Of a stretch of DNA of 64,000 nt, positions 2,302-62,089 are shown in pieces. This stretch comes from Chitinophagaceae bacterium 26-R-25 (GTDB lineage Bacteria > Bacteroidota > Bacteroidia > Chitinophagales > Chitinophagaceae). The stretch covers positions 62,001 to 126,000 of the forward strand of contig JARWSJ010000003.1 of NCBI GenBank assembly GCA_029906195.1. Reading direction: 5' to 3'. The stretch's first letter is position 1. Each line of letters begins with the position of its first letter. Position numbers and translations under genes: made by a program. The notes beneath the pieces are model-generated. The model did not search any database, was not told the DNA's origin, and worked only from the letters and a program-made list of their open reading frames with translations.

Positions 2302-2400
2302 ATAACAGAATAACTGAATAATCGAATAACTGTGTGTTCTCTGTTTAAAAGGCTAATCGAATATCGACCATTCAGTTATTCAATTATTCAGTTATTCAGT
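2302..2400. repeat. Paired inverted repeat, family C (TTATTCAGTTATTCAG)
   Basis: Left arm carries GAATAACTGAATAAT, right arm ATTATTCAGTTATTC, with about 45 unrelated bases between. The same motif family recurs near 9921, 10045, 28751, 44734 and 47314, always between genes. This copy follows the terminator at 2269. Confidence 0.75.
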
Positions 2401-2491
2401 CTTTCCCTCGGCCAACTCTCGGCGAAATTTCGGCGAAGAATTTGACATACCCTATAAGCGAAATTATTTTTGTATTCAAATAAACGCCACC

Positions 2492-4726
2492 GTGAACAAA
2501 ACATCTATCACATTAACCTTTCTCCTGCTTTCTGCATTTTCATTTGCACAAACCACCTTATCCGGTATTATCAAGGATTACAAGGGCAAACCCATACCTG
2601 GCGCCAGCATCACATTAAGGGACACTTATGATGGTGCAACATCTGATTCTTCCGGACATTATAACTTCTCCACCCCAGAAAAAGGTGAAAAAATACTAAC
2701 TGTAACCTGCGTTGGTTACAAGCCATGGGAACAAAACATCACACTGCATGCGGGCCAAATGCCTATAAACATAATGCTGAAAGAAAATCTTGATGAATTA
2801 AAAGCAGTAATTGTAACCGCCGGTTCTTTCGAAGCAAGTGATTCAAAACGCACTACTGTATTAAATCCACTGGACATTGTTACAACAGCGAGTGCAAATG
2901 CAGATGTTACAGCCGCCATACGCACATTACCCGGCACACAACAAGTTGGTGAAAAAGAAGGCTTGTTTGTTCGTGGTGGTAGCGGCGAAGAAGCGAAGAT
3001 ATTTATTGACGGTACTTTGGTAAATAACTTCTTCTTCAGCAGCGTTCCTGACATTGCGCAACGCGGCCGTTTCAATCCATTTTTGTTTAAAGGAACTGTC
3101 TTTACATCCGGCGGCTACTCTGCTTTGTACGGACAGGCTTTGTCTGCAGCATTGATTCTTGAAACTGTTGATCTGCCGGAAAGGACCTCTGCAAACGTCG
3201 GTTTATCAACTGTTGGACTAAATGCGGGTTATCAAAAACTGGCGAAGAATAACAAGGCAAGTTGGGGTATTAACTACAACTACACCAACCTACTCCCTTA
3301 TTTTGCCATCGTTCCGCAAAAGCCGGATTACTTCAGGATGCCTTTGTACCACAACGCGGAAACCAACTTCCGCATCAAAACTTCAAGAACAGGCATGCTT
3401 AAGTTTTATGGTTATTTCAACTATAACCAACTGGGCCTGAGAAATCCCGACATTGACTCTGCAAAGCTTAAAAATGCTTTCGGCCTGTATAACAATAATG
3501 AGTATGCGAATCTTTCTTACAAAGAAGTGCTGGGCAGAAACTGGAAGCTTAATATCGGTACTTCTTACAGTCATAATCTTGACAACATAAATACCGACTT
3601 GCAAAACCAGGATAATGAAAATCAACACATCCCTTACTATCCCTATTTGCAAAAAGCTTTTAAAGTAGACTCGCGCAGCCAGCTGGCAACCGTTAAAACA
3701 GTGTTGGAGAAACACCTTAGCGGGATCAGCGCGGTACGATTTGGCGGTGAATATTTGTGGAACAAAGAAAATACAGACTATAGCAACGACACTCTTTTGC
3801 ATGCGTTGAGCGGCTATGTAGATAACTTCACCGCGTTATTTGCTGAAACAGATATCTACATTACCAATGACCTCGCGGCCAAACTGGGAACACGCTATGA
3901 GTATTCTTCTTACCTCAAAAAGTCAGACATTGTTCCCCGTGTTTCGATTGCCTATAAATTGGGAAACAAAGGACAGGTTTCTTTTGCCTACGGCATGTTT
4001 TATCAAAAACCTGAACGTAATTATTTGCTGTTTTCTAATAAGTACCTGTATCAAAAGGCAACACACTACATACTCAACTATCAAAAGCTTACAACCGAAC
4101 ATACTTTCCGCGTAGAAGCTTATTATAAAAAATACAATGATCTTTTGAAAACCGTTCCCGACACAAACAACCTTGGTTATGGTTATGCACAGGGGATTGA
4201 AGTTTTCTGGCGAGATAAAAAATCATTGAAGAATTTCGACTACTGGATATCTTATTCATATCTCGATACAAAGCGTGATTATTTGAACTATCCAAAATCA
4301 ATGCAGCCAAATTTTGCAGCGACACATACAGCCTCTGCAGTGGTAAAGAAATTTGTTTTGAACTGGAAAACACAATTCAACGCGTCTTACACCTTCGCAA
4401 CCGGAAGACCTTACTATAACTTAATGGCCGATGGCGCTGGAAAATATTACATTGCCGACCAGGGAAAAACAGTAACCTACAATAACCTGAGCTTTAGCGT
4501 GAATTATTTACCAAGGCTCGGAAAGAAAGACTCTAAAACATTTATTGTTTGGGTGCTTTCTGCAACAAATGTTTTGGGAAACAAACTGGTATATAATTAC
4601 AACTACTCAGCAGATGGAATGAACAAGGTTGCCGTAACGCCACCCGCTGGCAGGTTTTACTTCTTAGGCTGTTTCATTAGCTTTGGCATTGATAGAACAG
4701 AAGACGTGATTAATAACAATCTTTAA
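2492..4726 (+). CDS. TonB-dependent receptor with carboxypeptidase-like domain
   Basis: Outer-membrane, TonB-gated uptake channel. Signal peptide at residues 1-19 (ending FSFAQ), then a CarboxypepD_reg-like beta domain at about 21-100 (LSGIIKDYKGKPIPGASI), a plug at about 110-230 (RTLPGTQQ, GLFVRGGSGEEAKIFIDG), and a barrel to the end. At 744 residues it belongs to the small receptors and not to the 1000-residue SusC type, and no SusD partner follows. Start is GTG at 2492; the signal peptide begins directly there, which supports it. The ligand cannot be read from the sequence. The next gene, after a repeat-filled gap, encodes a small secreted helical protein. Confidence 0.85.
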   Translation: MNKTSITLTFLLLSAFSFAQTTLSGIIKDYKGKPIPGASITLRDTYDGATSDSSGHYNFSTPEKGEKILTVTCVGYKPWEQNITLHAGQMPINIMLKENLDELKAVIVTAGSFEASDSKRTTVLNPLDIVTTASANADVTAAIRTLPGTQQVGEKEGLFVRGGSGEEAKIFIDGTLVNNFFFSSVPDIAQRGRFNPFLFKGTVFTSGGYSALYGQALSAALILETVDLPERTSANVGLSTVGLNAGYQKLAKNNKASWGINYNYTNLLPYFAIVPQKPDYFRMPLYHNAETNFRIKTSRTGMLKFYGYFNYNQLGLRNPDIDSAKLKNAFGLYNNNEYANLSYKEVLGRNWKLNIGTSYSHNLDNINTDLQNQDNENQHIPYYPYLQKAFKVDSRSQLATVKTVLEKHLSGISAVRFGGEYLWNKENTDYSNDTLLHALSGYVDNFTALFAETDIYITNDLAAKLGTRYEYSSYLKKSDIVPRVSIAYKLGNKGQVSFAYGMFYQKPERNYLLFSNKYLYQKATHYILNYQKLTTEHTFRVEAYYKKYNDLLKTVPDTNNLGYGYAQGIEVFWRDKKSLKNFDYWISYSYLDTKRDYLNYPKSMQPNFAATHTASAVVKKFVLNWKTQFNASYTFATGRPYYNLMADGAGKYYIADQGKTVTYNNLSFSVNYLPRLGKKDSKTFIVWVLSATNVLGNKLVYNYNYSADGMNKVAVTPPAGRFYFLGCFISFGIDRTEDVINNNL

Positions 4727-4754
4727 TGTACGAAGTACGATGTACGGTGTACGA
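4727..4754. repeat. Single arm of repeat family B (TGTACGGTGTACGA)
   Basis: Begins right after the TonB receptor stop. It matches the left arms of the complete family B elements at 5556 and 30042; no right arm is present here, so this is a half element. Confidence 0.6.
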
Positions 4755-4770
4755 CAGTCGGCAAGCTCAA

Positions 4771-4873
4771 GCTCTCCGGAGCTTTTAGCTCCGGAGCATT
4801 ATTCTATCGCCTGAGGCGATAATGTTGCCAAAGGCAACAAAATAAAACTGCGAGGCTACAAGCCTCGCAGAGC
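4771..4873. repeat. Hairpin-cluster element, family A, copy 1
   Basis: A run of stem-loops: CTCCGGAGCTTTTAGCTCCGGAG, then TATCGCC-TGA-GGCGATA, then GTTGCC-AAA-GGCAAC, then CTGCGAGGC-TACAA-GCCTCGCAG. Copies 2 (44616) and 3 (60137) have the same layout with different but still complementary stem bases. It fills the gap between the receptor gene and the next gene on the same strand. Confidence 0.7.
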
Positions 4874-4909
4874 CAACAACATATAATAAAAAACAAACAC
4901 CAAATAAAA

Positions 4910-5551
4910 ATGAAAAAAACAATCCTCACGTTTTTTGCAATTGTTGCAACAGTCGCAGCATTTAGTCAGAGCGAAAGATATTCATCAGCGATGAAACAAA
5001 ACATTTCAATGCTGGATTCAGCTTTATCAAACGGAAAGATCATCGATCTCTCCAACAATTTTGAACGCATAGCCAATGCAGAGAAAACACAATGGCTTCC
5101 TTATTACTATGCATCTTACTGCACCATCATGGATGCGCTGATGCGTGAAGACAAAAAACAAGTAGATGTTATTGCTGACAAGGCAGACAGCCTGCTTACC
5201 AAAGCACAAGAATTGGCAGGAAGCGAAAACTCTGAGATATGCGTGATCAAAAGCATGATCGCTACGGCGCATATGACCGTAAATCCTCCGGCACGTTACA
5301 TGAAATACGGCAAGGCTTCCGATAACTATATCGAAAAAGCAAAGCAGCTTGACTCAACAAACCCAAGACCGGTTTACTTGCAGGGACAAAATACTTTCTA
5401 TACACCAAAAGTGTTTGGCGGTGGCAAAGAAAAAGCAAAACCTTATCTCCAAAAGGCAATGGCAATGTATGCGAAATTTGTTCCGGCAACCGACTTGTCA
5501 CCAAACTGGGGCAAGTCTGGCACGCAGTGGTTCTTGTCGCAGTGCGAATAG
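4910..5551 (+). CDS. Secreted helical protein of unknown function
   Basis: A 213-residue exported protein with a signal peptide at 1-19 (MKKTILTFFAIVATVAAFS). The mature part is alpha-helical and resembles a degenerate tetratricopeptide array: regular Ala/Leu/Tyr heptads such as ADSLLTKAQELAG, NYIEKAKQLD and AKPYLQKAMAMYAKF. A GGGKEKAKPYL segment is typical of the last repeat. It lies on the same strand as the TonB-dependent receptor upstream and may serve with it, but the gap holds a strong hairpin element, so co-transcription is uncertain. No catalytic motif is visible. Confidence 0.75.
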   Translation: MKKTILTFFAIVATVAAFSQSERYSSAMKQNISMLDSALSNGKIIDLSNNFERIANAEKTQWLPYYYASYCTIMDALMREDKKQVDVIADKADSLLTKAQELAGSENSEICVIKSMIATAHMTVNPPARYMKYGKASDNYIEKAKQLDSTNPRPVYLQGQNTFYTPKVFGGGKEKAKPYLQKAMAMYAKFVPATDLSPNWGKSGTQWFLSQCE

Positions 5552-5555
5552 CCAG

Positions 5556-5645
5556 ATGTACGATGTTAGATGTACGGTGTACGAAAATCTTTATGGTGTC
5601 AGATTAAAATGACTTTCGTACACCGTACTCCGTACATCGTACATC
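5556..5645. repeat. Paired inverted repeat, family B, copy 2
   Basis: Left arm GATGTACGATGTTAGATGTA then CGGTGTACGA; right arm TTTCGTACACCGTACTCCGT then ACATCGTACATC. The spacer shares GGTGT and ATGACTTTCG with the copy at 30042, so in this family part of the loop is conserved as well. Confidence 0.75.
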
Positions 5646-5706
5646 CCATATGCTGCTTGCAAAACCCGCAACCATTCCGTACTTTACAGTGCATAATTGA
5701 TCAATT

Positions 5707-8223: not shown

Positions 8224-8283
8224 GGCTTCGACAAGCTCAGCCTGACAGCACGAAAGGAGTGTCAGGCTGAGCTTGTCGAAGCC
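8224..8283. repeat. Paired inverted repeat, family F, copy 1
   Basis: Two perfect 24-base arms (GGCTTCGACAAGCTCAGCCT.. and its complement at 8260-8283) around a 12-base loop. The same arms occur at 59156-59215 with a different loop. It follows the patatin gene and could end its transcript. The rest of the 394-base gap holds the AT-rich imperfect hairpin at 8370-8418 and the promoter element at 8499. Confidence 0.8.
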
Positions 8284-9593: not shown

Positions 9594-9795
9594 CCGTTTT
9601 TCTACTAACATGCCGCCCCGCTGGGGCGCGTATTAAATTGATCATAATGTATTTGATTTCTACTAACGTGTCGCCCCGCAGGGGCTAATTGGATCATTCA
9701 AGATGTTTTATACAGCCTCAGCGGGGCGACACGTTAGTAGAAAAGGCAACAATTTAGAAAAGGCGAGCCTGCCCCAGAGGGGCGGCATGTTAAAC
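9594..9795. repeat. Nested GC-rich inverted repeats (CGCCCCGCAGGGGC)
   Basis: Two inverted repeats, one inside the other. Inner arms: TTTCTACTAACGTGTCGCCC (from about 9658) with its complement near 9722-9745. Outer arms: AACATGCCGCCCCGCTGGGG (from about 9607) with CCCCAGAGGGGCGGCATGTT near 9773. They dominate the 686-base gap between the OmpA-like gene and psd. I see no gene in that gap. Confidence 0.7.
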
Positions 9796-11512: not shown

Positions 11513-11522
11513 TTGAACGTCT

Positions 11523-11591
11523 AATGCAGAATGCCTAACGCATAACGCTTAGTGTGTAACACCATGCGTTATGCGTTAGGCATTCTGCATT
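11523..11591. terminator. Perfect 26-bp hairpin (family D, copy 2) between converging genes
   Basis: Arms at 11523-11548 and 11566-11591 match over all 26 bases, loop 17 bases. Placed between the fasciclin stop (+) and the haemoglobin stop (-), so it probably ends both transcripts. Confidence 0.7.
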
Positions 11592-11596
11592 GAGCG

Positions 11597-15984: not shown

Positions 15985-16129
15985 AGGAATTAGGAATTAG
16001 AAATTAGGAGTTAGGAATTAGAGATTAAGAATCGTAGCGCACGGTTGAAATTGAATTGCATGGTAAACGCTTTCAACACAATAGTTAGCGAAAACCTTCT
16101 GATTCCTAATTTCTAATTCCTAATTCCTA
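15985..16129. repeat. Paired inverted repeat, family K, copy 1
   Basis: GGAATTAGGAATTAGAAATT on the left faces AATTTCTAATTCCTAATTCC on the right, 60-odd bases apart. It occupies the gap between nosZ and the nosL fusion, inside the operon. A second copy is at 61957. Confidence 0.7.
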
Positions 16130-19530: not shown

Positions 19531-20730
19531 ATGTCGTTGTTTTCTAAGTGGATAAGGATTTCTTTTTTTAATCTTCTTATAGTTGCCCTTTGTGGCGTTA
19601 TTCTGCGATATAAAATTGTGTTCTCACTCCCTATCATCGAGCAAAAACATTTATTGCACGCGCATTCTCATTTTGCCTTCACGGGTTGGATAACACAAAC
19701 GATTTTTTGCTTCCTGGTTTTCTTCCTCCAAAAGAAAAATAGCATTGATGCATACGCGAAATACCGGTGGTTGCTGGTTGCAAACCTGCTGTCAGCCTAT
19801 GGCATGTTGATTTCGTTTATCATACAAGGTTATGCGCTGTACTCCATCACATTCTCAACTATATCTATTGCAGTACTTGCAATTTTTGCGGTTTACTATT
19901 GGCGCGACCTTAACCGATATGAAGGAAACACTTTAGCCGCATTCTGTTGCAAAGCGGCGCTCATTTTTGCACAAATATCTTCTTTGGCAACGTTCATGTT
20001 GGCCTGGCTTATGGTAAATAAGTTTGAGGGGCAATACTGGTATGTAGCAGCCATATATTTTTTCCTGCACTTTCAATACAACGGCTGGTTCTTTTTTGGC
20101 TGCCTTGCCATCCTATTCATGATGATCCCTAAAGAGAATTACAACAGCATTCTTGCGAAAAAATTATGCGTTACGCTGGTTGCCTGCTGTGTTCCTGCAT
20201 ATTTGCTTTCGGTAATAACTTTCGCCATCCCCGCTTATGCATACGCGATAGCTACAATTACCGGAATTGTACAATGTGTTGCTTTATTTTGGCTTTTAAT
20301 TGTTATGCGTCCCGCACTGAGCGTGGTTAAGAGCGGTAACAAATGGATATTTAAACTCGTCGCCGCAGCCGTGGCAATAAAATTTCTACTGCAAATGTTT
20401 TCTACAATGCCCGCGCTTTCTATTCTGGCTTTTGGCTCCAGGCCAATTATTGTAGGGTATTTGCACCTCGTGTTGTTGTGTATTGTCTCACTGTTCTTGT
20501 TAGCAGCAGCAAGGAATTATTTGAATTATAATTCTCTTTTCAAATTAGCAACCGCAATCTTCATCATCGGAATAGTTGCCAATGAAGCTGTATTGATGGG
20601 CCAGGGGCTAATGGGCTTTTACGGCATTCCGATGTCTCATGTCATTGAAACACTCTTTGTTATAACAGTAGTGATTTTGGTGGGCATATTGTTGCTAAAT
20701 ATTTCGATGAAAGAAGTGAAGGAACACTGA
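19531..20730 (+). CDS. Twelve-helix His-rich membrane protein, haem-copper-oxidase-like
   Basis: A 399-residue integral membrane protein with about 12 hydrophobic segments. His residues cluster at HLLHAHSHFAFTGW (His40, 43, 45, 47) at the start of helix 2, LHFQYNGWFFFG (His180), YLHLVLL (His312) and PMSHVIETL (His370), all at or in helices. This resembles haem-binding patterns of oxidase subunit I and NnrS families, but the full oxidase signature is not present, so the family is not certain. It begins 15 bases after the Crp/Fnr gene and is probably co-transcribed with it. It may relate to NO or respiratory haem-copper chemistry. Its stop codon lies within an inverted repeat arm. Confidence 0.7.
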   Translation: MSLFSKWIRISFFNLLIVALCGVILRYKIVFSLPIIEQKHLLHAHSHFAFTGWITQTIFCFLVFFLQKKNSIDAYAKYRWLLVANLLSAYGMLISFIIQGYALYSITFSTISIAVLAIFAVYYWRDLNRYEGNTLAAFCCKAALIFAQISSLATFMLAWLMVNKFEGQYWYVAAIYFFLHFQYNGWFFFGCLAILFMMIPKENYNSILAKKLCVTLVACCVPAYLLSVITFAIPAYAYAIATITGIVQCVALFWLLIVMRPALSVVKSGNKWIFKLVAAAVAIKFLLQMFSTMPALSILAFGSRPIIVGYLHLVLLCIVSLFLLAAARNYLNYNSLFKLATAIFIIGIVANEAVLMGQGLMGFYGIPMSHVIETLFVITVVILVGILLLNISMKEVKEH

Positions 20731-20850
20731 TTTTCATGATTGTCATGATTTGTCAAGATCTATTTTTATGTTGGGCTTTCTGCAAAAAGGGCGTGCCTTC
20801 AGTTTCAAATATCAAATCATAACAAATCATGACAATCATGAAAATCAGTG
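20725..20850. repeat. Paired inverted repeat, family I, copy 1, spanning two stop codons
   Basis: Identical 29-base arms (20725-20753 and 20822-20850) that begin CACTGATTTTCATGATTG. CACTGA encodes His-stop of the + strand gene ending at 20730 and, on the other strand, of the minus gene ending at 20845. Core shared with 42191. Confidence 0.85.
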
Positions 20851-21030
20851 CTCCTCTTTGTCTTTCTTTTGTGAAGGATCTTTCTTTCGTCCTGCATCTT
20901 TCAAGGCCTTATCTATCAGCCACTCCAGCTGGCCGTTCACGCTCCTGAAATCATCTGCGGCCCATTTTTCCAATGCGGCAAATGTTTGTGCATCTATCCT
21001 TAAAACAAATGATTTTTTATCTGAACTCAT
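20845..21030 (-). CDS. Arc-type ribbon-helix-helix DNA-binding protein
   Basis: A 61-residue basic protein: short strand KKSFVLRID at 5-13, helix 1 AQTFAALEKWAADD at 14-27, turn, and helix 2 VNGQLEWLIDKALKDAG at 31-47, then a Lys/Asp/Glu tail. That is the strand-helix-helix plan of Arc/MetJ repressors, which bind DNA as dimers through the paired strands. It lies 48 bases after the SPFH gene on the same strand; the two probably form an operon and this protein may repress it (see TTTGATAT repeats at 21958). Confidence 0.8.
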   Translation of the reverse strand: MSSDKKSFVLRIDAQTFAALEKWAADDFRSVNGQLEWLIDKALKDAGRKKDPSQKKDKEEH

Positions 21031-22001: not shown

Positions 22002-22029
22002 TTCTAAATTTTTTCATACCTATTTCGTA

Positions 22030-22111
22030 GAGACGCATGAAAATGCGTCTCTGGTGCGGCACCGAAAATGCGTCCCCGAAACAAGACAGAGACGCATTTT
22101 CATGCGTCTCT
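22030..22111. repeat. Inverted repeat, family J (GAGACGCATGAAAATGCGTCTC)
   Basis: AGAGACGCATGAAAATGCGT at the left and ACGCATTTTCATGCGTCTCT at the right; each arm is itself a palindrome. A terminator for the next minus-strand gene follows at 22124. Confidence 0.7.
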
Positions 22112-25749: not shown

Positions 25750-25778
25750 TAAAAAATCTAAAAAAAAGCTATTTTAAT

Positions 25779-25852
25779 GCTGAAAGCCTAACGCCTAACG
25801 CTTAACGCAATGGTTCACTGCGCTTTGCGTTAGGCGTTAGACATTCAGCGTT
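25779..25852. repeat. Paired inverted repeat, family D, copy 3
   Basis: GCTGAAAGCCTAACGCCTAA faces TTAGGCGTTAGACATTCAGC. Lies directly after the rny stop (minus strand) and likely forms its 3' hairpin. Confidence 0.7.
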
Positions 25853-28744: not shown

Positions 28745-28750
28745 AGTTCA

Positions 28751-28850
28751 AGAACTGAATAACTGAGTAACTGAATAACTGAATCCTCTGGCCAACATGC
28801 CACATATCTTCGCACCTGTCGGTTATTCAGTTATTCGGTTTATCAGTCAT
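28751..28850. repeat. Paired inverted repeat, family C, copy 2
   Basis: GAACTGAATAACTGAGTAAC on the left, GGTTATTCAGTTATTCGGTT on the right, about 50 bases apart, in the gap after the TlpA-like gene. Confidence 0.7.
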
Positions 28851-28930
28851 TGTTTATGACTGGTTTGTCAACTTTCTCTGTTTATTTGAACAAACGCATC
28901 TTACCTTGACGGTTAAACGCAAAATTTCAC

Positions 28931-30041: not shown

Positions 30042-30130
30042 ATGTGCGATGTTGGATGTACGGTGTACGAAATTCTTCAGGGTGTTACATATAGATGACT
30101 TTCGTACACCGTACGTCGTACCTCGCACAC
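30042..30130. repeat. Paired inverted repeat, family B, copy 3
   Basis: TGTGCGATGTTGGATGTACG on the left, CGTACACCGTACGTCGTACC then TCGCACA on the right. The outer arm bases differ from copy 2 (5556) in matched fashion: TGCGA here pairs with TCGCA, where copy 2 has TACGA with TCGTA. Confidence 0.75.
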
Positions 30131-34072: not shown

Positions 34073-34112
34073 GCAGGTGTTTTTAACAGGATTCACCCAC
34101 TACTGATAAATT

Positions 34113-34227
34113 AAAAGTGAAAAGTAAAAATTCAAAAAAGAGACTGTGCTTTGTTTTAAGTCAGTAATAAACGATTCGAAGATGCATCAAAACGTTTTTA
34201 CTTTTGATTTTTTACTTTTTACTTGGT
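34113..34227. repeat. AT-rich inverted repeat, family L, copy 2
   Basis: AAAAGTGAAAAGTAAAAATT faces TTTTTACTTTTGATTTTTTA, then TTTTTACTTG. It includes TACTTTTG at 34199-34206, a possible -7 element for the acyl-CoA dehydrogenase gene. Confidence 0.5.
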
Positions 34228-34263
34228 ATTTATCGACATATTAAATCATCAAAAAAAAGTCAT

Positions 34264-36921: not shown

Positions 36922-36970
36922 GAAGATATTTCGTGTCAATAGAAAATGATCTAACAAGTTAAAAGCTCTC

Positions 36971-37060
36971 GCTTGTCATCCCGAGGAACGAGGAATCTGA
37001 GTGCCACGCATACAGTCTGTCTGTGTTACCCCAGATCCCTCGTTCCTCGGGATGACAAGC
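36971..37060. repeat. Paired inverted repeat, family H, copy 1
   Basis: GCTTGTCATCCCGAGGAACG pairs with CGTTCCTCGGGATGACAAGC. Copies 2 and 3 (58434, 61194) have CCCGACGAAGGAGG instead, paired with matching changes. It is one of three repeats filling 36599-37196, where I see no gene. Confidence 0.75.
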
Positions 37061-37149
37061 GGTCTTTGCCTACTAATTAAAAAAGCACGTTCCATACAAT
37101 CTGCCATTATCAAATATCAAACATTCTTTCTCCATCCCAAGATGATATT

Positions 37150-42135: not shown

Positions 42136-42190
42136 GATGCAAAGTAATTTGAAAATGTGGGAATTTGAAAATTTGAAAATGGGAAGACGG

Positions 42191-42364
42191 AACGCAGATT
42201 TTCATGATTGTCATGATTTGTTATGATTTTTTTATTTGAGATCTGGTAGTCAATTACACTTCAACCTAATCCGATCTTAAATCTCGTTGATCTCCATGGC
42301 GGCCATATTCAATTTTCTAAAAACAAAATCATAACAAATCATGACAATCATGAAAATCTGCGTT
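42191..42364. repeat. Paired inverted repeat, family I, copy 2 (40-bp arms)
   Basis: Perfect 40-base arms at 42191-42230 and 42325-42364, starting AACGCAGATTTTCATGATTG. Inner bases match the copy at 20725, outer bases (AACGCA here, CACT there) do not, yet pair within each copy. Separates the holB and 3-methyladenine glycosylase genes (both minus strand). Confidence 0.9.
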
Positions 42365-42368
42365 CTCT

Positions 42369-44615: not shown

Positions 44616-44728
44616 AGCTCTGCAAGGCTTTTAGCCTTGCAGCATTATTCCGTTGACTCTGGCAACTTTTTTTTATTATCGCCGAAGGCGATAGAATGGA
44701 ACTGCAAGGCTACAAGCCTTGCAGAGCT
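44616..44728. repeat. Hairpin-cluster element, family A, copy 2
   Basis: CTGCAAGGCTTTTAGCCTTGCAG, then TATCGCC-GAA-GGCGATA, then CTGCAAGGCTACAAGCCTTGCAG and GAGCT; outer AGCTC pairs with GAGCT. Stems differ from copy 1 (CCGGAG instead of GCAAGG) but remain complementary. Confidence 0.8.
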
Positions 44729-44733
44729 GGAAA

Positions 44734-44819
44734 TGACTGAATAACTGAGTGTTTGAACGACAACGTTGTCTTAGAAAATCAACCACTCAGTTATTCAGTC
44801 ATTCAGTTATTCAGTTACT
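44734..44819. repeat. Paired inverted repeat, family C, copy 3
   Basis: TGACTGAATAACTGAGTG on the left, CACTCAGTTATTCAGTCA then TTCAGTTATTCAGT on the right. Directly follows the family A element; both lie between converging genes. Confidence 0.75.
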
Positions 44820-47191: not shown

Positions 47192-47212
47192 AGCTTGCCT
47201 TAAATTTTTTGA

Positions 47213-47240
47213 AAAGCCCCGGAAATTCCGGGGTTTTTTG
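47213..47240 (+). terminator. greA: Terminator of greA
   Basis: AAGCCCCGGAA-ATTCCGGGGTTTTTT: stem of CCCCGGAA with TTCCGGGG and a T run. Confidence 0.85.
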
Positions 47241-47264
47241 TTTGGGGCACGCGGAATGCAGTTA

Positions 47265-47451
47265 GCACACAGATGACACGGATTAGACTGATTTACACGG
47301 ATCTATTCAAGGTCGAATAACTGAGTAACTGAATAACTGACCGTTTATGTTTAAGAACCAGCGTTCATTCAAACTTCAATTATTCTTTCATTCAATGATT
47401 CAGTTATTAAAAGATCAGTGTAAATCAGTCTAATCCGTGTCATCTGTGTGC
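47265..47451. repeat. Nested inverted repeats (outer 34-bp arms, inner family C)
   Basis: Outer arms, perfect over 34 bases, at 47265-47298 and 47418-47451, start GCACACAGATGACACGGATT. Inside lies a family C pair (GAATAACTGAGTAACTGAAT near 47314, TCAATGATTCAGTTATT near 47392). The 345-base gap 47192-47536 contains only the greA terminator and these repeats. Confidence 0.85.
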
Positions 47452-47536: not shown

Positions 47537-48610
47537 ATGGCAAAATTATTTGAACCACTCACCATTAAAGAGGTTACGTTTAGAAACAGAATTGTTGTTT
47601 CGCCGATGTGCGAATATTCTTCGGTCGACGGTTTTGCAAATGACTGGCACCTGGTGCATCTTGGAAGCCGCGCTGTTGGCGGTGCCGGACTGATCATTAC
47701 CGAGGCCACTGCCGTTAACCCGGAGGGGCGCATTTCACCTGACGATCTCGGCATCTGGAAAGATGAACACATAGAAAAGCTGGAGCAAATTGTAGAATTC
47801 ATTCATGAACATGGCGCAGTAGCCGGCATTCAACTGGCACATGCGGGAAGAAAGGCAAGCTCACTTTCTCCATGGAAAGGCGGTACACAAATTCGGATGA
47901 AAGACGGCGGCTGGCAAACAGTGGCTCCTTCAGAAATTCCGTTTCAGGAGCATTACGAAAAACCCAGAGCATTAACCATCGATGACATAAAACAACTGGC
48001 AATAGATTTTAAGGAAGCGGCAAAAAGAGCCGTGAAAGCCGGATTTAAAGTAATTGAAATACATGCGGCGCATGGCTATTTGATTCATGAATTTTTGTCG
48101 CCATTATCCAATCACCGGACAGATGCATATGGCGGAAGCTTTGAAAACAGGATAAGATTTTTATTGGAAGTAATAGAGGCCATTCATAGCGTATGGCCCA
48201 AAAGCAACCCTTTGTTTGTTCGCATTTCCGGAAGCGATTGGGTGGAAGGCGGCTGGAACATTGAAGAAAGTGTGAAGCTTGCTGCAATGCTTAAAGCCGA
48301 AGGTGTTGATTTGATTGACACTTCATCCGGTGGCTTATCGCATGAGCAAAAAATTCCTTTATCGCCCGGCTACCAGGTTCCCTTTGCAGAAAAAATAAAA
48401 GAAGAGACCGGCATTTTAACCGGGGCCGTTGGTCTCATCACCACAGCCGAACATGCCGAAAGTATTTTACAAAATAACCAGGCAGATGTGATCGTAATGG
48501 CGAGAGAACTTTTGCGTGATCCTTATTTTCCGCTTCATGCGGCACAAACGCTGGGAGTGGATATTCCATGGCCATCGCAGTATGAAAGAGCAAGGCCCAG
48601 GAAGAAATAA
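47537..48610 (+). CDS. Old Yellow Enzyme family ene-reductase (YqjM/NamA-like)
   Basis: FMN-dependent NAD(P)H oxidoreductase of 357 residues reducing activated C=C bonds or nitro groups. TIM barrel with RIVVSPMCEYSS (Cys tuning FMN, typical for the thermophilic-like YqjM class), GAVAGIQLAHAGRKAS (substrate His/Gly), EIHAAHGYLIHEFLSPLSNH, DAYGGSFENRIRFLLEV, VRISGSDW and VIMARELLRDPYFPLHAA. ATG follows GAGGAA. Likely role in detoxifying electrophiles. No linked regulator. Confidence 0.93.
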   Translation: MAKLFEPLTIKEVTFRNRIVVSPMCEYSSVDGFANDWHLVHLGSRAVGGAGLIITEATAVNPEGRISPDDLGIWKDEHIEKLEQIVEFIHEHGAVAGIQLAHAGRKASSLSPWKGGTQIRMKDGGWQTVAPSEIPFQEHYEKPRALTIDDIKQLAIDFKEAAKRAVKAGFKVIEIHAAHGYLIHEFLSPLSNHRTDAYGGSFENRIRFLLEVIEAIHSVWPKSNPLFVRISGSDWVEGGWNIEESVKLAAMLKAEGVDLIDTSSGGLSHEQKIPLSPGYQVPFAEKIKEETGILTGAVGLITTAEHAESILQNNQADVIVMARELLRDPYFPLHAAQTLGVDIPWPSQYERARPRKK

Positions 48611-48692
48611 AAATTCAAAATTAAAAAGTCAAAAAATGGGAGCGCTTTTCCGGAGTTTCGTTTTTGACTTTTTAATTTTTACTTTTTACTTT
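48607..48692. repeat. AT-rich inverted repeat, family L, copy 4
   Basis: AATTAAAAAGTCAAAAAATG faces TTTTTGACTTTTTAATTTTT; better matched than the other family L copies. Immediately follows the ene-reductase stop. Confidence 0.6.
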
Positions 48693-57074: not shown

Positions 57075-57320
57075 CTATGTGCTTTCCTTACTGTCGGTTA
57101 CATATTTGCCCGCGGCTTCAAAAAACTTTACTAACTGTTTATAACAAAAAAAGAAGTCTAATCTCTTTTTTGATTCTTCGAACAAATGATTATCAGAAGT
57201 GAGGCATATTTCCATGGCATTGTGTAGCAAGGATTGGATTTCTTCGAGGCCACACGTATCGAAAAGATCCTCCAAAGAGATTTGCAAATTGATGTCGGAT
57301 AGGGTGTTTTTTTTATTCAT
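57075..57320 (-). CDS. Small hypothetical protein
   Basis: 81 residues, acidic and helical: LSDINLQISLEDLFDTCGLE, EIQSLLHNAMEICLTSDNHL, FEESKKRLDFFFCYKQLVKF. No known domain and no repeat character. It has an ATG start and a free-standing position 50 bases before the next minus-strand gene. The 297 bases between it and the gene at 57618 are AT-rich and show nothing else. Moderate confidence that it is expressed. Confidence 0.5.
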   Translation of the reverse strand: MNKKNTLSDINLQISLEDLFDTCGLEEIQSLLHNAMEICLTSDNHLFEESKKRLDFFFCYKQLVKFFEAAGKYVTDSKEST

Positions 57321-57617
57321 GTTATAAGATTTTCGCTTTCCCGGTAAAATGAATTTGCAAAGGTCGGAAACGGTTTTTTTCGAGACAATTACCTATAGGA
57401 GAGTAAATGAAAAATTCGAAAAAAGTAAAGTAATACGATGATTCCCTATGTATATTGTAGCGATTTTATTACTGTGTTTTATAAGCTGAAATAATAAAGT
57501 CAAATTGCTAAATAAAAAACAACCCTATTTTCGTCAAATCAATTTTTTTGCCATTTGAGATAGACAAATATTGGCTCAAATAAGAGTCTTGTTATAAAAC
57601 CCTTTTAACCCTACCAT

Positions 57618-58325
57618 ATGACCTTTAATTTCTACGAAGAATTTCAAAATCATTCTAACGAAGAACTCATTACCATTGTAAGGCAAACAAATGCCTACCA
57701 ACCAGAAGCAGTTGCGGCCGCTTATCAGCATCTAAACGAACGAGAAGTAAGTCAAAATGAAATTTTGGGCGTGAAAGAAATTTCGGAGAACAATTACACT
57801 ATCGGTACAAACGAAGACAGACAGGAGGATTTGCTGGTTCCTCACATTAAAGAGCCCCAACAGGGCATATTCCCTAACAAATGGATCAATATTTTATTAG
57901 GCATAATCGCCCTTCAGTTTTTTTACAGAGCAGGCGATAATTTATATTATTTTTATAAGCATTCGATCCCCTTATCGTTCTTACTTAATTATAATTCGTT
58001 AATAACGTATGTTATACTTCCCACGTTATTCCTGTTGATTTTTAAACGCTATAAACTCGCTTGGTTCATTTTCTTTGTACCAAACTTACTTTCAGCACTT
58101 GTAGTTATCGCACGAAAAGCGACCGCGATAGCATATGATTATGTTGATAATTATATGTCCCTGCTCTCACCTGCTATTGCTGTAGCTATTAGTCTTGCTT
58201 ATGTGGTAATTCTTTGGAAAGAAGAAGTGGCTAATCTGTTTTCAATTTCAAAATCTACAAAGCAAAAAACAGCTTTGATCGTTCTCGGACTTAGCTTTTT
58301 GTTATGGGTATTCCAGCCACAATAA
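57618..58325 (+). CDS. Membrane protein related to the one at 39709
   Basis: A 235-residue protein: N-terminal soluble helices (FYEEFQNHSNEELITIVRQT, NAYQPEAVAAAYQHLNEREV) and, from about 95, five membrane segments (WINILLGIIALQFFYRAG, YVILPTLFLLIFKRYKLAWF, IFFVPNLLSALVVIAR, LLSPAIAVAISLAYVVILW, TALIVLGLSFLLWVF). The helical pair with SNEEL/TDEEL followed by a run on Ala-Glu matches the N-terminus of the protein at 39709. Function unknown. Confidence 0.72.
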   Translation: MTFNFYEEFQNHSNEELITIVRQTNAYQPEAVAAAYQHLNEREVSQNEILGVKEISENNYTIGTNEDRQEDLLVPHIKEPQQGIFPNKWINILLGIIALQFFYRAGDNLYYFYKHSIPLSFLLNYNSLITYVILPTLFLLIFKRYKLAWFIFFVPNLLSALVVIARKATAIAYDYVDNYMSLLSPAIAVAISLAYVVILWKEEVANLFSISKSTKQKTALIVLGLSFLLWVFQPQ

Positions 58326-58433
58326 TTCAAAACATAAAACCAACATAACAATCACTTTGTAAAAGTTCCGCCAACTTATTCGTAAATTTTCATTCCAATA
58401 TGTTTTGGTGTCGATAATTACTAAGCAAAGATT

Positions 58434-58524
58434 GCTTGTCATCCCGACGAAGGAGGGATCTGAGTTTTACATTAACAGACTGTTTGAGTAGCTCCCAGAT
58501 CCCTCATTCGTCGGGATGACAAGC
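58434..58524. repeat. Paired inverted repeat, family H, copy 2
   Basis: GCTTGTCATCCCGACGAAGG on the left, TTCGTCGGGATGACAAGC on the right; spacer of about 30 bases differs from other copies except for ACAGACTGT. Confidence 0.8.
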
Positions 58525-58593
58525 GACGTCGCTCTGTTTCTTTAAACATGTTGATTAATCAAGTTTAAATTTTCATTTCAAAAAAAACTTACC

Positions 58594-59082
58594 ATGAGTG
58601 CTTCTACAAACCACGCGAAACTCGCCATTGAACAGGTTATTGCAGAATGGCAAAAGCAAAACAAAAGAGTGGATGATATGCTGGCGAAATTTTCCGCTGA
58701 ACAATTCAATAGTGAAATCGCTCCCGGAAAAAATACCGGCACTTACCTGCTGGGACATTTGATCGCTGTGAATGACAACATAACTACCTTTCTTGGTTTT
58801 GAAAGAACATATGCACACTACGACGACATGTTTGTGAAAAATCCTGATAAATCGGGCCTAACATTTCCTTCACTGGATGAATTAAAAACTGCCTGGAACA
58901 AAGTGAATGAAACACTGGCCAAACATTTCAGTTCGCTGTCAGTAGAAGATTGGTTTGCAAAACACACAGCCGTTTCACAAGCTGATTATGAAGCCAATCC
59001 ACAACGAAATAAACTCAACATTGTGATCAACAGAACAAACCATCAATCTTATCATGTAGGGCAGATGGTGTTGTTGGGGTGA
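58594..59082 (+). CDS. DinB-family metal-dependent enzyme
   Basis: A 162-residue four-helix bundle of the DinB/YfiT superfamily. Metal-binding His appear at TYLLGHLIAVND (helix 2) and in NRTNHQSYHVGQMVLLG (helix 4), the usual three-His pattern. The N-terminus is helical (LAIEQVIAEWQKQNKRVDDM). Members act as thiol-dependent transferases, some with bacillithiol, which this organism makes (bshA at 45453). Specific activity unknown. Confidence 0.88.
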   Translation: MSASTNHAKLAIEQVIAEWQKQNKRVDDMLAKFSAEQFNSEIAPGKNTGTYLLGHLIAVNDNITTFLGFERTYAHYDDMFVKNPDKSGLTFPSLDELKTAWNKVNETLAKHFSSLSVEDWFAKHTAVSQADYEANPQRNKLNIVINRTNHQSYHVGQMVLLG

Positions 59083-59155
59083 GTTGCGGGAAATATTAGT
59101 TAAATTTACACGAAGGACCAAGAGTTAATGATTCGGTACGTTTAGTTAGCAATAA

Positions 59156-59215
59156 GGCTTCGACAAGCTCAGCCTGACACTCTGTTTGTGCTGTCAGGCT
59201 GAGCTTGTCGAAGCC
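59156..59215. repeat. Paired inverted repeat, family F, copy 2
   Basis: 24-base arms identical to those at 8224-8283, loop CTCTGTTTGTGC. Lies between the DinB gene and the AraC-type gene at 59293. Confidence 0.85.
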
Positions 59216-59292
59216 CGTTAAACAATAAACAATGCGTTGCTATCTAAAACCTGCCGCGCCTATTAATTATTAATTATTAATTACTGCCTCTC

Positions 59293-60099
59293 GTGCATTA
59301 TCGTCAAATACCACCACCACCTTATCTTGCGAAGCACGTTCGCTATTTCTGGACGTTGCGGAATAATGATGTGCACCATACCACGGATGTTTTCCGTCCG
59401 CTGCCGGATGGTTGCCCCGGCCTGATCTTTCAACCGGGTTTTGCGCAGCAGGATTATACATTGCCCGACTTCTTTTTATACGGACAAACTACGCAGCAAA
59501 ACGAAATTGTATTAAACGAAAAGGTAGACACCATTGGCGTGTACTTTTATCCCGATGCGTTGCGATCTGTGTTTGGCTTACATGCGGAAACCCTTACCAA
59601 CACCTGCATGAACGTTGTTGACGTTTCCCCAAAAAAATACATTTCCATAAATGATCAATTGCTGAACACCGCTTCGGTCGAAGAAAAGATCAATATTATT
59701 GCTGCCTATCTTTTCGAATTAATTCAAAAGAATAGCCACCATTACAATGCAGAAGCGCAATATATTTTCTCGGCAATTTCTAAAAGCAAAGGCAATGTTT
59801 CGCTGAAGGATCTGCATGCAGATACACGCCTTTCGGAAAGAAGTTTTGAAAGAAAATTCAAGCAGCATATTGGTATTTCTGCAAAATTATTTTCACGCAT
59901 TTGCCGCTTCCAAACTTCACTGACGCAATTGCGAAACAATAATTTCCAAAAGCTTTCTGACATTGCCTACGAAAACGAATACGCAGATCAATCGCACTTT
60001 ATCCGCGCCTTTAAAGAATTTGCAGGCTGCACACCGCAACAGTTTCAAAAGCAAACGAATGAAATTGTAGAGAATTTTCCTTTGGTTGTTGGTAGCTAG
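59293..60099 (+). CDS. AraC-family regulator with DUF6597-like domain
   Basis: A 268-residue transcription factor, GTG start at 59293 (MHYRQIPPPPYLAKHVRYFW). Sensor domain: RPLPDGCPGLIFQPG, FFLYGQTTQQNEI, TIGVYFYPDALRSVFGL. DNA-binding domain at about 165-255: SLKDLHADTRLSERSFERKF, KQHIGISAKLFSRICRF, LSDIAYENEYADQSHFIRAF. Similar plan to the regulator at 49725. It may control the cytochrome/DUF1772 genes downstream, but that is only positional. Confidence 0.87.
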   Translation: MHYRQIPPPPYLAKHVRYFWTLRNNDVHHTTDVFRPLPDGCPGLIFQPGFAQQDYTLPDFFLYGQTTQQNEIVLNEKVDTIGVYFYPDALRSVFGLHAETLTNTCMNVVDVSPKKYISINDQLLNTASVEEKINIIAAYLFELIQKNSHHYNAEAQYIFSAISKSKGNVSLKDLHADTRLSERSFERKFKQHIGISAKLFSRICRFQTSLTQLRNNNFQKLSDIAYENEYADQSHFIRAFKEFAGCTPQQFQKQTNEIVENFPLVVGS

Positions 60100-60136
60100 A
60101 CCTGACAGGTTTTTCAAGCTGCCTGATTAATAGTAA

Positions 60137-60226
60137 CAAGGCTTGTAGCCTTGAAGCCTTTTCTATTGCCTATGGCAATCGCTGGAAGCGACAAAATAAA
60201 ACTTCAAGGCTACAAGCCTTGAAGAG
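60137..60226. repeat. Hairpin-cluster element, family A, copy 3, with family E half arm
   Basis: CAAGGCTTGTAGCCTTG, then ATTGCC-TAT-GGCAAT, then CTTCAAGGCTACAAGCCTTG and AAGAGC. A lone family E arm (AGACCTGACAGG, 60099-60110) precedes it. Confidence 0.75.
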
Positions 60227-60293
60227 CACCCCCTGTCGGTTTTGTTCTATTTTAAGAATTCCATTCTTTCTTGTTTTGTGGAAAAGAAACAAA

Positions 60294-60593
60294 ATGAGAC
60301 AGCTCACAGCATCATTCGCCATCATCTTTCTTTTATTTACGATCATCACTGGTTTTACATCAAATGTTACAGGTAAAGAATTGTACTTGCACAATTGCGC
60401 CACATGTCACGGCGAAACAGGCGACAGGGGCCGGTTTGGCGCCAAAGACCTAACGAAAAGTATTCTGCCGGATTCCGCTATCATCCTGCAAATGCAAAAC
60501 GGCAGGAAGATAATGCCTTCGTTTCGGAAAAGATTAACCGCCGACGAAATGCAGCAAATTATGCAGTTCGTAAAAACCTTGCGCCAAAACTAA
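60294..60593 (+). CDS. Small cytochrome c
   Basis: A 99-residue single-haem cytochrome c: signal or anchor at about 8-22 (FAIIFLLFTIITGFT), haem motif CATCH in LHNCATCHGETGDRG, and an axial Met in KIMPSFRKRLTADEM. ATG 60294 is preferred; the frame upstream to 60219 runs into the family A repeat. It may be an electron carrier for the oxidoreductase activity suggested for the following DUF1772 gene. Confidence 0.85.
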   Translation: MRQLTASFAIIFLLFTIITGFTSNVTGKELYLHNCATCHGETGDRGRFGAKDLTKSILPDSAIILQMQNGRKIMPSFRKRLTADEMQQIMQFVKTLRQN

Positions 60594-60635
60594 AACCCTT
60601 CAACATCATTATTTGTTTTCAAATCAATAATCAAA

Positions 60636-61145
60636 ATGAAAAGATCTATGTTTTCGCTGTTAAATATTTTGTTGATCGCCGCTGCAGTTTTATCTGCGTT
60701 AATTGCCGGACTGTTCTATGCGTGGTCGTGTTCCATTATTCCCGGACTTGCAAAGCTGGATGGGAGAACTTATGTATCGGCCATGCAGTCATTTAACAAA
60801 GCAATCCTGAACCCCGTGTTCTTCTTAAGTTTTATGGGAACGTTGATCATGTTGCCCGTTGCAACATTTGCGCATTTTCACCAGCCGTTATCTGCGCGAT
60901 TTTGGTTGTTGCTTGGCGCGACCGTTCTTTATGTTGTGGGGGTGTTTGGCGTAACTGCCTTTGGAAATGTTCCGTTGAACAATATGCTGTCGTCATTCGA
61001 TCTGCCTTCTGCTTCAAACGAAGCAATCAATAGTGTGCGCGCAAAATTCGAAGCGCCGTGGAATAGTTTGCACAGCATTCGCACCGTCGCTTCAATTGTA
61101 GTGTTGCTGTTGGTTGTTTGTGCGTGTGTGCGAGGAGAGAATTAA
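60636..61145 (+). CDS. DUF1772 (anthrone-oxygenase-like) membrane protein
   Basis: A 169-residue membrane protein with four helices (ILLIAAAVLSALIAGLFYAW, FFLSFMGTLIMLPVATFA, FWLLLGATVLYVVGVFGVTA, SIVVLLLVVCACVR). Family markers: AGLFYAWSCSIIPGL, FGNVPLNNMLSSFDL and WNSLHSIRTVAS. DUF1772 members include fungal anthrone oxygenases; in bacteria the role is unproved. 42 bases after the cytochrome c gene and likely in one transcript. Confidence 0.88.
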   Translation: MKRSMFSLLNILLIAAAVLSALIAGLFYAWSCSIIPGLAKLDGRTYVSAMQSFNKAILNPVFFLSFMGTLIMLPVATFAHFHQPLSARFWLLLGATVLYVVGVFGVTAFGNVPLNNMLSSFDLPSASNEAINSVRAKFEAPWNSLHSIRTVASIVVLLLVVCACVRGEN

Positions 61146-61193
61146 TAATTAAATGTTGTTTACCTAAGCTGTTTGAAAAATTAAAAGCATCTC

Positions 61194-61288
61194 GCTTGTC
61201 ATCCCGACGAAGGAGGGATCTGGGTGACTGTTTATGCAACGTGTCAGTTGTGTTAGACCCAGATCCCTCCTTCGTCGGGGTGACAAGC
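61194..61288. repeat. Paired inverted repeat, family H, copy 3
   Basis: GCTTGTCATCCCGACGAAGG on the left, CCTTCGTCGGGGTGACAAGC on the right. The only mismatch between arms is one A/G at the GGGGTGAC point. Between converging genes. Confidence 0.8.
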
Positions 61289-61355
61289 AGTCTTTCCTTA
61301 CGAATCCCAACCTCCATTCCATTTGGAAAAAGTTGGCTAATTAAACAACGTTGAA

Positions 61356-61838
61356 TTAATTGCCTTCCCCATCTCTCGCATCCTCAAGTTCTTTGATATT
61401 CAGTTTAGCCATTTTCATCATTGCTTCCATGCCTCTTCTTGCTTTAGCGGGATCGGGGTCGCCGAGTATTTCATTCAACACTCTTGGTATGATCTGCCAC
61501 GATAAACCAAATTTATCTTTCAGCCAGCCGCAGCGTGAAGGTTCGCCGCCATTTGCGATCAGCTTGTCCCACTTTTCATCAATTTCTTCTTGTGTGTCGC
61601 AAAGTACAAACAGAGAAAATGCTTCGGTGAATTTGAACATAGGACCACCATTCAAAACCATAAAGTCCTGGCCGTCGATGGAAAAAATAGCCGTCATCAA
61701 TTGTCCCTCCGGACCCGGCCCGCCTTTTCCATAATAGCGTTTATTTCTGATGCTGGTGTTTTTAAAAATGCTGGTGTAGAGATTCATGGCCTCTTCTGCA
61801 TTATTATCATACCACAGGAATGGCGTTATTTTTTGCAT
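61356..61838 (-). CDS. VOC-fold protein (PhnB-like)
   Basis: A 160-residue member of the glyoxalase/VOC superfamily: ITPFLWYDNNAEEAMNLYTS, MTAIFSIDGQDFMVLNGGPM, FTEAFSLFVLCDTQEEIDEK, GWLKDKFGLSWQIIPRVLNE and a C-terminal helix. Start is ATG at 61838 (TTG at 61847 less likely). Several VOC proteins with this ending (PAKARRGMEAMMKM) are common in environmental Bacteroidota; function unknown. Confidence 0.9.
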   Translation of the reverse strand: MQKITPFLWYDNNAEEAMNLYTSIFKNTSIRNKRYYGKGGPGPEGQLMTAIFSIDGQDFMVLNGGPMFKFTEAFSLFVLCDTQEEIDEKWDKLIANGGEPSRCGWLKDKFGLSWQIIPRVLNEILGDPDPAKARRGMEAMMKMAKLNIKELEDARDGEGN

Positions 61839-61956
61839 AATTGACAAGTTTTAATGTTTACTTTTTGTTGTTGTTATTCTAACACAAACATAAGGAGGTT
61901 GAATCTTCGGAGTGATGGGGAGTTGCGACAAATTGGAGGCAGATTGTGCAACTCAA

Positions 61957-62089
61957 TTAAGAATTAGGAATTAAGAATTCTTTGCTTCGGCTAGTGTTTA
62001 CAAAGAAGATGCACTCTGTTAATGATTCAATACTATCAATAACAGAGTGCATCTTCAATTCTTAATTCCTAATTCCTAATTCCTAATTC
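61957..62089. repeat. Nested inverted repeats (family K, copy 2)
   Basis: Outer: AATTAAGAATTAGGAATTAA faces TTAATTCCTAATTCCTAATT. Inner perfect arms GAAGATGCACTCTGTTA (from 62006) and AACAGAGTGCATCTTC (from about 62041). Confidence 0.8.

Follow-up and report, generated by a model that had tools for sequence, protein, structure and literature searches.

Small hairpin inversions of plastid DNA are reportedly the subject of work by Kelchner and Wendel in 1996. Loops of plastid hairpins flip between related species, mostly downstream of genes (PMC6824564, PMC6005162); one study counts 11 cases with loops of 4-24 bases, and six of the 11 inversion sites lie between tail-to-tail genes (PMC6824564). 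Template switching at hairpins predicts both arm homogenisation and loop inversion (PMC8794818, PMC8604942). Compensatory change together with loop inversion has been called the strongest possible support for such switching, and 69 loop-only inversions have been counted in rRNA genes, with loops typically of 4 bases and some of 7-8 (PMC8794818); a study of yeast genes gives 10 spacer inversions with 2-5 substitutions and states that published bacterial data favoured transversions (PMC8604942). In bacteria, comparable elements include repetitive extragenic palindromes (REPs) and their hairpin-forming doublets (REPINs), described as extragenic pairs of inverted palindromes placed mostly between co-directional and convergent genes, in whose hairpin compensatory changes are already called common (PMC3116915); a GTAG tag is given as a feature of REPs (PMC3733652). 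Here we describe the intergenic inverted repeats (IRs) of the window, a stretch of 64,000 nucleotides at positions 62001-126000 of contig C3 of Chitinophagaceae bacterium 26-R-25 (G000, genome of 6.51 Mb), together with their counterparts in sister species of Pinibacter, a genus placed in Chitinophagaceae, Bacteroidota.

Positions labelled own3 count from base 1 of contig C3, while own1 and own2 stand for C1:100001-500000 and C1:1700001-2100000; together these three stretches sample 1.486 Mb, or 23%, of the window's own genome (own). The sister genomes are Pinibacter aurantiacus MAH-26 (G001, pa) and a third species of the same genus (G002, g2). Genes were called with a codon-usage script. Families A-V are labels defined by regular expression on arm words, which gives 22 word families over the three species; 32 of 275 repeats fit none of them, and the own stretches used for this sorting have no R. 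The existence of the inverted repeats is confirmed: the window contains 20 non-overlapping ones at a score of at least 18, and none were found in each of 20 local dinucleotide shuffles. They form about 20 dispersed families in Pinibacter, mostly placed just 3' of genes, and 7 of 276 IRs at a score of at least 16 lie inside called genes (four stretches, three species). A preliminary description of the window had placed one in nearly every gap over 80 bases. This was too strong, as an IR with a score of at least 16 occurs in 21 of 46 such gaps in the window and in 285 of 816 in the sampled 1.486 Mb. IR density along the genome is uneven, with 32 per 400 kb in own1, 129 per 400 kb in own2 and 163 per 686 kb in own3. 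Literature searches on inverted loops, homogenised arms and microinversions in hairpins of bacteria showed nothing on point among the papers listed, most subscription papers being outside their coverage, so that earlier reports may exist; a search on the genus name with repeats found none.

Loop orientation between sister species

The strongest result of this analysis is the inversion of loops between arms that stay collinear, a trace that template switching at hairpins in DNA would be expected to leave. Loops of at least 18 bases from same-family IRs in the same gap were aligned in both orientations, and 6041 same-family pairs from different gaps served as the null, with a 99% threshold. Among 78 comparisons between own and pa, 25 loops were forward, 7 inverted and 46 neither. 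For the null, 35 of the 6041 pairs passed the threshold inverted, which corresponds to about 0.45 inverted loops expected among 78. The own/g2 comparison gave 4 forward, 4 inverted and 19 undecided loops and the pa/g2 comparison 12, 1 and 21, respectively; IRs without a same-family partner numbered 110 (own/pa), 65 (own/g2) and 50 (pa/g2). With the three species compared, a recognisable loop is found in 41 gaps, forward in 38 and inverted in at least one comparison in 8, five gaps showing both. A looser loop test (13 inverted of 66 comparisons) was set aside for this null-calibrated one, and so was a small-sample test (9 of 71 comparisons), of whose six inverted loci two, 8310 and 159581, are not among the final eight.

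One of the eight lies in the window, the family Q element at 44616-44728 (own3 106607, loop of 59/65 bases). The others are family H loops at own2 124076 (93/96 bases) and own3 226977 (85 bases), family A loops at own2 230124 (47/60 bases), own3 150349 (38/37 bases) and own3 516013 (27 bases), a family T loop at own3 190458 (26 bases) and a family I loop at own3 468277 (26 bases). These loci rest on assemblies, one of which is probably short-read (Platanus), and each inverted element measures at most 180 bases. Loops at these loci align at 0.74-0.93 when inverted and at 0.54-0.64 when forward; the arms align at 0.65-1.0 forward and at 0.39-0.88 as reverse complement, the highest value being in the self-palindromic family T. 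Left flanks are forward at all eight loci and right flanks clearly so at five. Comparison of the three species polarises four events: the own lineage is where the loops of 150349, 468277 and 516013 turned, and pa is where that of 226977 did.

Mismatches between the arms provide markers of side. At the inverted loci, markers were retained in 8 comparisons, swapped in none and altered otherwise in 8; the 8 retained comparisons represent 6 distinct markers at four loci. At forward loci, 30 were retained, none swapped and 38 altered. The retained marker nearest to the loop is 10, 8, 19 and 17 bases away at 150349, 468277, 516013 and 230124, respectively, so the turned piece at those four loci consists of the loop and at most that much arm. 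These observations bear on the idea that the loops are flipped, possibly as a switch, by an invertase specific to the site or by arms recombining in a RecA-type manner. Arms of 17-42 bp do flank the inverted loops, but they are unrelated between the families concerned (H, A, I, T and Q), and exchange far from the loop would swap arm markers, none of which is swapped. We regard this explanation as very improbable.

It is also unlikely, if less extremely so, that the palindromes are mobile and otherwise only drift, the loop inversions being independent insertions in opposite orientation or whole-element flips by a transposase. Such a view accommodates the unit insertions and turnover described below, and some loops do recur elsewhere in both orientations. 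However, the five loops of 124076, 190458, 226977, 468277 and 516013 have no other match in the 2.9 Mb compared (E 1e-3) and are thus unique to their locus in that sequence, a whole-element flip would swap the arm markers that keep their side at the four readable loci, and paired changes of the arms exceed independence.

We consider it probable that these elements are mobile-derived palindromes, resembling REPINs or miniature inverted-repeat transposable elements (MITEs), that undergo loop inversion at the DNA level and occasional arm copying. About 20 palindrome families would enter intergenic DNA as complete units, in most cases a short way 3' of a gene, and some elements would insert inside the loop of an older one and so give nested palindromes. 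After insertion the arms would drift, mostly one side at a time, and long DNA hairpins would serve as template-switching substrates during replication, by which the loop is turned and the arms stay in place. We infer that polymerase template switching, and not another exchange near the loop, flips the loops. Template switching had been one of two options in the preliminary description, and it now finds its support chiefly in the loop inversion at eight loci, with the excess of paired arm changes in addition.

Unit insertion, nesting and arm change

Comparing orthologous gaps with sister species, a check that the preliminary description had proposed, revealed unit insertions with empty sister sites, nearly fixed polarity, nesting without crossing and turnover between sisters, besides the loop inversions. 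For a first set of 203 own gaps, orthologous gaps were found in pa for 163 and in g2 for 151. Where both species have an IR with a score of at least 14, arms share fewer than two 8-mers in 27 of 63 gaps (pa) and 17 of 45 (g2); these are upper figures for family change, as a few cases are related words or weak hairpins. Insertions facing an empty sister site include P in pa at own3 131584 and E in pa at own3 136627. Family O is inserted in g2 at own3 238824 with an AATT duplication and long terminal repeats, the own site having a single AATT, and family R is inserted in pa in at least two gaps (15277 and 42891). In pa, the P element entered a small palindrome, TTATTTAAATAA, at its centre, and its arms are thereby extended by host sequence.

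Where two different families share a gap, they were nested in 17 cases, disjoint in 10 and crossing in none, the 17 including two that are O's own ends around its core and several with an unlabelled partner. The nestings H[I], J[A] and A[E] were each seen more than once. Pairs of reverse polarity are absent from 12 of 13 families, and two occur in Q. Independent placement of single arms was rejected on account of the nearly fixed polarity and the unit insertions. That families A-J move, or have moved, as units is suggested by their almost constant polarity, their nesting and an insertion, of E, found in a single species. In the preliminary description, insertion of one mobile unit and drift were both held to fall short of an explanation; for most of the pattern this view is not supported, since unit insertion and one-sided drift cover the bulk of it.

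Changes in the arms were counted where the loop is homologous. Each of the six comparisons, which overlap in their data, selected IRs in a single species and followed them into the second one. One-sided changes of paired positions dominate (77, 81, 76, 38, 94 and 48). Two-sided complementary changes number 5, 9, 16, 13, 13 and 7, and 1.2, 1.5, 3.2, 1.1, 2.3 and 0.9 are expected from independence, the both-changed figure being split one to two. This several-fold paired excess stands, but it is weaker evidence than the loop inversion. Several of the paired changes are transversions, for example G-C to T-A, for which G·U cannot serve as an intermediate. The locus own3 226977 stands out most, with three paired changes and no one-sided one; clustered changes were read at few loci. 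A first set of ortholog counts included poorly aligned elements and was superseded by these stricter ones, while a count that requires an IR in both species gives 9 paired changes against 0.2 expected, a figure that leans upward and in which one gap entered twice.

Choosing near-perfect repeats builds in the answer to whether pairing within a copy is special, and copies were therefore collected without a demand for complementarity, using nhmmer arm profiles built from detected IRs and pairing hits by position and strand (13 families). Arm identity within copies was then compared with that of permuted partners in 12 families of 8 to 51 copies; Q (6 copies) was dropped and K-N and R-V were left out. 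Identity within copies and with permuted partners was, respectively,.920 and.919 in A,.923 and.892 in B,.907 and.917 in C,.887 and.874 in D,.803 and.789 in E,.918 and.878 in F,.892 and.879 in G,.891 and.879 in H,.922 and.914 in I,.909 and.858 in J,.955 and.936 in O, and.982 and.976 in P, a surplus of -1 to 5 points. Concordance at variable columns exceeded permutation in B, F, J and O (p about 0.003 or less) and in E and I (0.016-0.027), p values being uncorrected for the number of families; it was not found above permutation for A, C, D, G and H, and in P no column varies. When 6 flanking bases were included, in an earlier run (13 families), p values were at most 0.0015 for B, F and J, 0.018 for E and 0.047 for D, with C, O and P below expectation (p.997,.999 and.925). 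Paired variation is clear only in B, F, J and O, and in the flank-added set-up O did not show it.

The claim that arms match within a copy and vary between copies is thus mostly unconfirmed, with clear paired variation in B, F, J and, in one of the two set-ups, O, and a weak one in E and I; in most families, identity within a copy is close to that of permuted partners. Concerted arm variation as a general property was rejected, as gathering copies without a complementarity demand shrank the effect to a minority. The near-perfect arms that had been singled out do exist (26/26 in the outer arm at 11523, 24/24 at 8224 and 59156, 41/41 at 42190), and both quoted variant pairs, of families I and H, are found in the quoted copies; the arm at 20720 is 34 bp with one mismatch, and the 34/34 match at 47265 lies within a 40 bp arm with one mismatch. 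Such eye-catching arms are the well-matched end of a broad distribution. In family P (about 50 pairs), mismatches to the consensus are mostly unshared between arms, one pair sharing the first base (among the places listed, by eye). In family O, the two arms of a pair are of different types in 14 of 16 pairs from the g2 stretch, 3 of 14 from own and 0 of 2 from pa, and 3, 5 and 1 O arms, respectively, are unpaired. Few shared mismatches in P and mixed arm types in O are expected from spread by unit copying plus drift. The paired variants of B, F, J and O may be explained by arm copying.

Stem pairing in RNA or in DNA

Several observations weigh against a combination of mobile palindromes, DNA-level loop inversion and arm copying. 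The immediate right flank aligns poorly at 468277, 230124 and 106607. The loops of 150349, 230124 and 106607 have similar loops elsewhere, and independent insertion in the opposite orientation is possible there. A footprint like that of template switching would also result from resolution of a cruciform or from strand exchange near the loop. Two-sided non-complementary changes in the arms (5, 4, 10, 2, 7 and 3, with 2.4, 2.9, 6.3, 2.2, 4.7 and 1.8 expected) are also somewhat in excess, so that uneven rates or misalignment may inflate part of the paired excess. By a simple word match, reverse polarity is present in 5 of 26 repeats of O, 1 of 19 of E and 1 of 6 of L, and loops of non-orthologous copies are only weakly alike. 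For the word-repeat families A-J, neither a mover, with PF01797 as the only family searched, nor a target duplication was found. Finally, arms diverge by.09-.17, loops by.20-.23 and flanks by.13-.18, and the first IR lies a median of 11 bases past the upstream stop codon in 193 co-directional gaps; slower arms and this position would also fit function.

The last two points favour the view that the stems are kept by selection as RNA, for termination or 3'-end protection, the paired changes being compensatory. In a 2026 survey of perfect inverted repeats, bacterial spacers are more polymorphic than arms, more so near terminators, and the authors read slower arms as function tied to terminators (PMC13155455); the slower arms observed here agree. 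Placement points the same way: among gaps of at least 60 bases in the 1.486 Mb, an IR with a score of at least 16 is present in 86 of 148 convergent and 193 of 575 co-directional gaps, over 40 of 163 divergent ones. Predicted folds are strong in all five window elements tested, and the DNA fold of the family E element at 11523..11591 has -34.3 kcal/mol (z -13.7).

If the stem is needed in RNA, however, mismatches on the sense strand should be G·U over A·C. The 187 long-loop IRs of co-directional gaps have 117 G·U and 126 A·C mismatches, and the 21 short-loop IRs of such gaps have 10 and 12. Convergent gaps give 51 versus 44 for long-loop IRs, and divergent gaps give 27 versus 41. As a control from that genome, 82 hairpins resembling terminators (a stem of 7-13, a loop of 3-8 and a T-run) have 34 G·U and 3 A·C (Fisher p 2e-7 versus the long-loop IRs), which demonstrates that the mismatch test has power. 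An earlier three-species count, with orthologs counted repeatedly, gave 122 G·U and 170 A·C. The prevalence of one-sided changes and the mixed arm types of family O in g2 likewise speak against selection on RNA stems, as do the 18 of 193 IRs that come after a separate terminator-like hairpin. RNA-level stem selection, the other option of the preliminary description, is not supported by these data and not needed to account for them, and we judge it quite unlikely; a passive terminator role of individual copies is possible.

Returning to processes at the DNA level, we assign a low probability to fold-back DNA synthesis as the way in which the families propagate, with one arm templating the other at each copying, loops flipping continually and different families recolonising the niches 3' of genes. 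Were this the case, the chromosome would keep a standing population of flipping hairpins from a replication process, perhaps with a helper enzyme, and not from RNA selection.

Covariation in hairpin stems is commonly taken as a sign of functional RNA. In the bacterial set described here, paired changes go together with placement 3' of genes, yet the G·U signature expected of RNA selection is missing, and its loop inversions are evidence for a DNA-level process able to mimic covariation. Counting G·U versus A·C on the sense strand, together with loop orientation, is a control that can be used for other genomes, and these repeats could serve as a natural system for measuring how often long loops invert.

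Families of the window and known systems

The elements of the window are given here by family, no strand being assigned to any of them. Family A (AATAACTGA words) forms IRs at 2308..2397 (arms of 25 bp, loop of 40), 28749..28852 and 44732..44803; in the gap of the first, P. aurantiacus has a same-family IR with a similar loop and the third species has family J instead, and the arms of the second are perfect in P. aurantiacus and imperfect in own and G002. The two family B (GAATTAGG words) IRs are at 15985..16128, aligned with both sister species, and at 61955..62081, where the P. aurantiacus gap has family C words. Family D (AAAGTAAAAAT words) is present at 48608..48688 and at 34105..34234; the latter IR extends into the called start of the next gene and is absent from the 60-base orthologous gaps of both sister species. 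Family E (AACGCC words) is found at 25776..25852 and, with a loop of 3, at 11523..11591, in a gap (11513-11596) that is occupied by family E in own, by the GAGAGTTGA type in pa and by the TTGAAAATTG type in g2. Family I (GAACGCAGATTTTCATGATT words) has the variant with outer bases CACT at 20720..20855 and a second IR at 42190..42365, with family H words to its left and, in G002, H words on both sides, i.e., H[I]. The family J (ACACGGATTAGAC words) IR at 47265..47451 carries family A words nested in its loop and lies downstream of an intrinsic-terminator-like hairpin. The T-run of a terminator-like hairpin is directly 5' of a family J element in three gaps (window 47192-47451, own3 148149 in a sister species and own3 169127), as if it were a preferred target.

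Single IRs represent families K (GTACGATGTACG words, 30043..30129) and U (GTCGCCCC, with CTAC/GTAG, 9657..9743), and the GTAG-tagged family S (GTAGAGACGCAT) has its palindromes as an inverted pair at 22029..22111. Family P (GGCTTCGACAAGCTCAGCCTGACA) IRs at 8224..8283 and 59156..59215 both have a 24-12-24 structure, a REPIN-like layout. Family O (CATCCCGAGGAACGAGG) is present at 36970..37061, as the core of a MITE-like family, at 58434..58524 and, in a GACGAAGGAGG type, at 61194..61288, where diverged ends resembling terminal inverted repeats (AATGTTGTTTA...TAAACAACGTT) have AATTAAT outside. Family Q (CAAGGCT double hairpin) has IRs at 60137..60221 and 44616..44728; the loop of the latter is inverted relative to G002 and oriented as in P. 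aurantiacus, an ambiguous case because Q loops recur elsewhere. In a further Q element, at 4727-4909 (own3 66727), the first hairpin reads CTCCGGAGCT...AGCTCCGGAG in own and CTGCAAGGCT...AGCCTTGCAG in P. aurantiacus and the second is unchanged, so that a block of paired changes is confined to one hairpin. An Rfam search returned one tRNA. Outside these families, the IR scan picked up repeated GTTCCACGTGGAAC palindromes at own3 205527-206042 and in the orthologs, which we take to resemble parS sites of the ParB type.

Family O is MITE-like in its ends and in one duplication. It is the core of elements of about 200 bp, several copies of which have the terminal repeat CAATGTCGTTTAGTTAAG at both ends; in many copies the ends are diverged or unrecognisable. 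Genome-wide, CAATGTCGTTTAGTTAAG has 38 matches with at most two mismatches, and a reversed control pattern has 3. No transposon-length pair that could mark an autonomous parent was seen among the 38, as judged by eye. The target-site duplication of O, AATT on both sides in G002 and single in own, is one clean case. Family P arms occur 101 times in the genome with at most two mismatches (48 forward, 53 reverse), and most of those listed are paired 36 bases apart (by eye), a layout that makes the family REPIN-like in appearance. Families S and T begin with GTAGAGAC and so bear the GTAG tag; P, O and A-J as listed are without such a feature.

REPs are associated with REP-associated tyrosine transposases (RAYTs), and a PF01797 search of the genome found one intact-looking and one broken gene. 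The former (L030 1228-1791, G000:C1:2605487) encodes a protein of 187 aa, the only unbroken one that this search found; repeats like those of J, I and Q lie near it, and GTAGAGAC does not. The latter (L029 1130-1800, G000:C1 near 1715410) is a Y1_Tnp-type, RAYT-like gene split into two frames; one of its sides has several palindromes of the U-like kind (AGCCCCAGCGGGGCT, CTACGAAC) no more than 300 bases away, and there is no GTAGAGAC. It is possibly a former mover of family U. A RAYT beside its own palindromes is thus possible for U and was not seen for S, T or the other families. A current RAYT driving all families was rejected, since this search yields one intact-looking and one broken gene for about 20 families. 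Spread across the phylum was also rejected, as A and J, the families searched in 296 phylum genomes, are seldom present beyond the genus. One genome (own) has the exact pair pattern of family A, and three have the J arm pattern with at most two mismatches (own, and two others with 1 and 2 matches). The exact P pattern was found in 12 stretches, all of P. aurantiacus, in a search that may not include the records of the window's genome itself.

Compared with MITEs, families A-J differ in that no such terminal ends were noticed around them. The likeness to REPs, REPINs and their RAYTs lies in extragenic paired inverted palindromes set mostly between co-directional and convergent genes, in the GTAG of S and T and in the U-like palindromes that adjoin the broken Y1 transposase gene. 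The difference is that two PF01797 genes, one of them broken, stand against about 20 families, and that the intact one has no GTAGAGAC nearby. The hairpin template-switch mutations of rRNA and yeast genes (PMC8794818, PMC8604942) differ from the present cases, in which the inverted loops, found at 8 of 41 comparable loci, lie between bacterial genes and measure 26-96 bases. The small inversions described for plastids share with these elements a loop between inverted arms that flips between relatives, at sites downstream of genes; here, by contrast, the loops are longer and the palindromes belong to dispersed multi-copy families.

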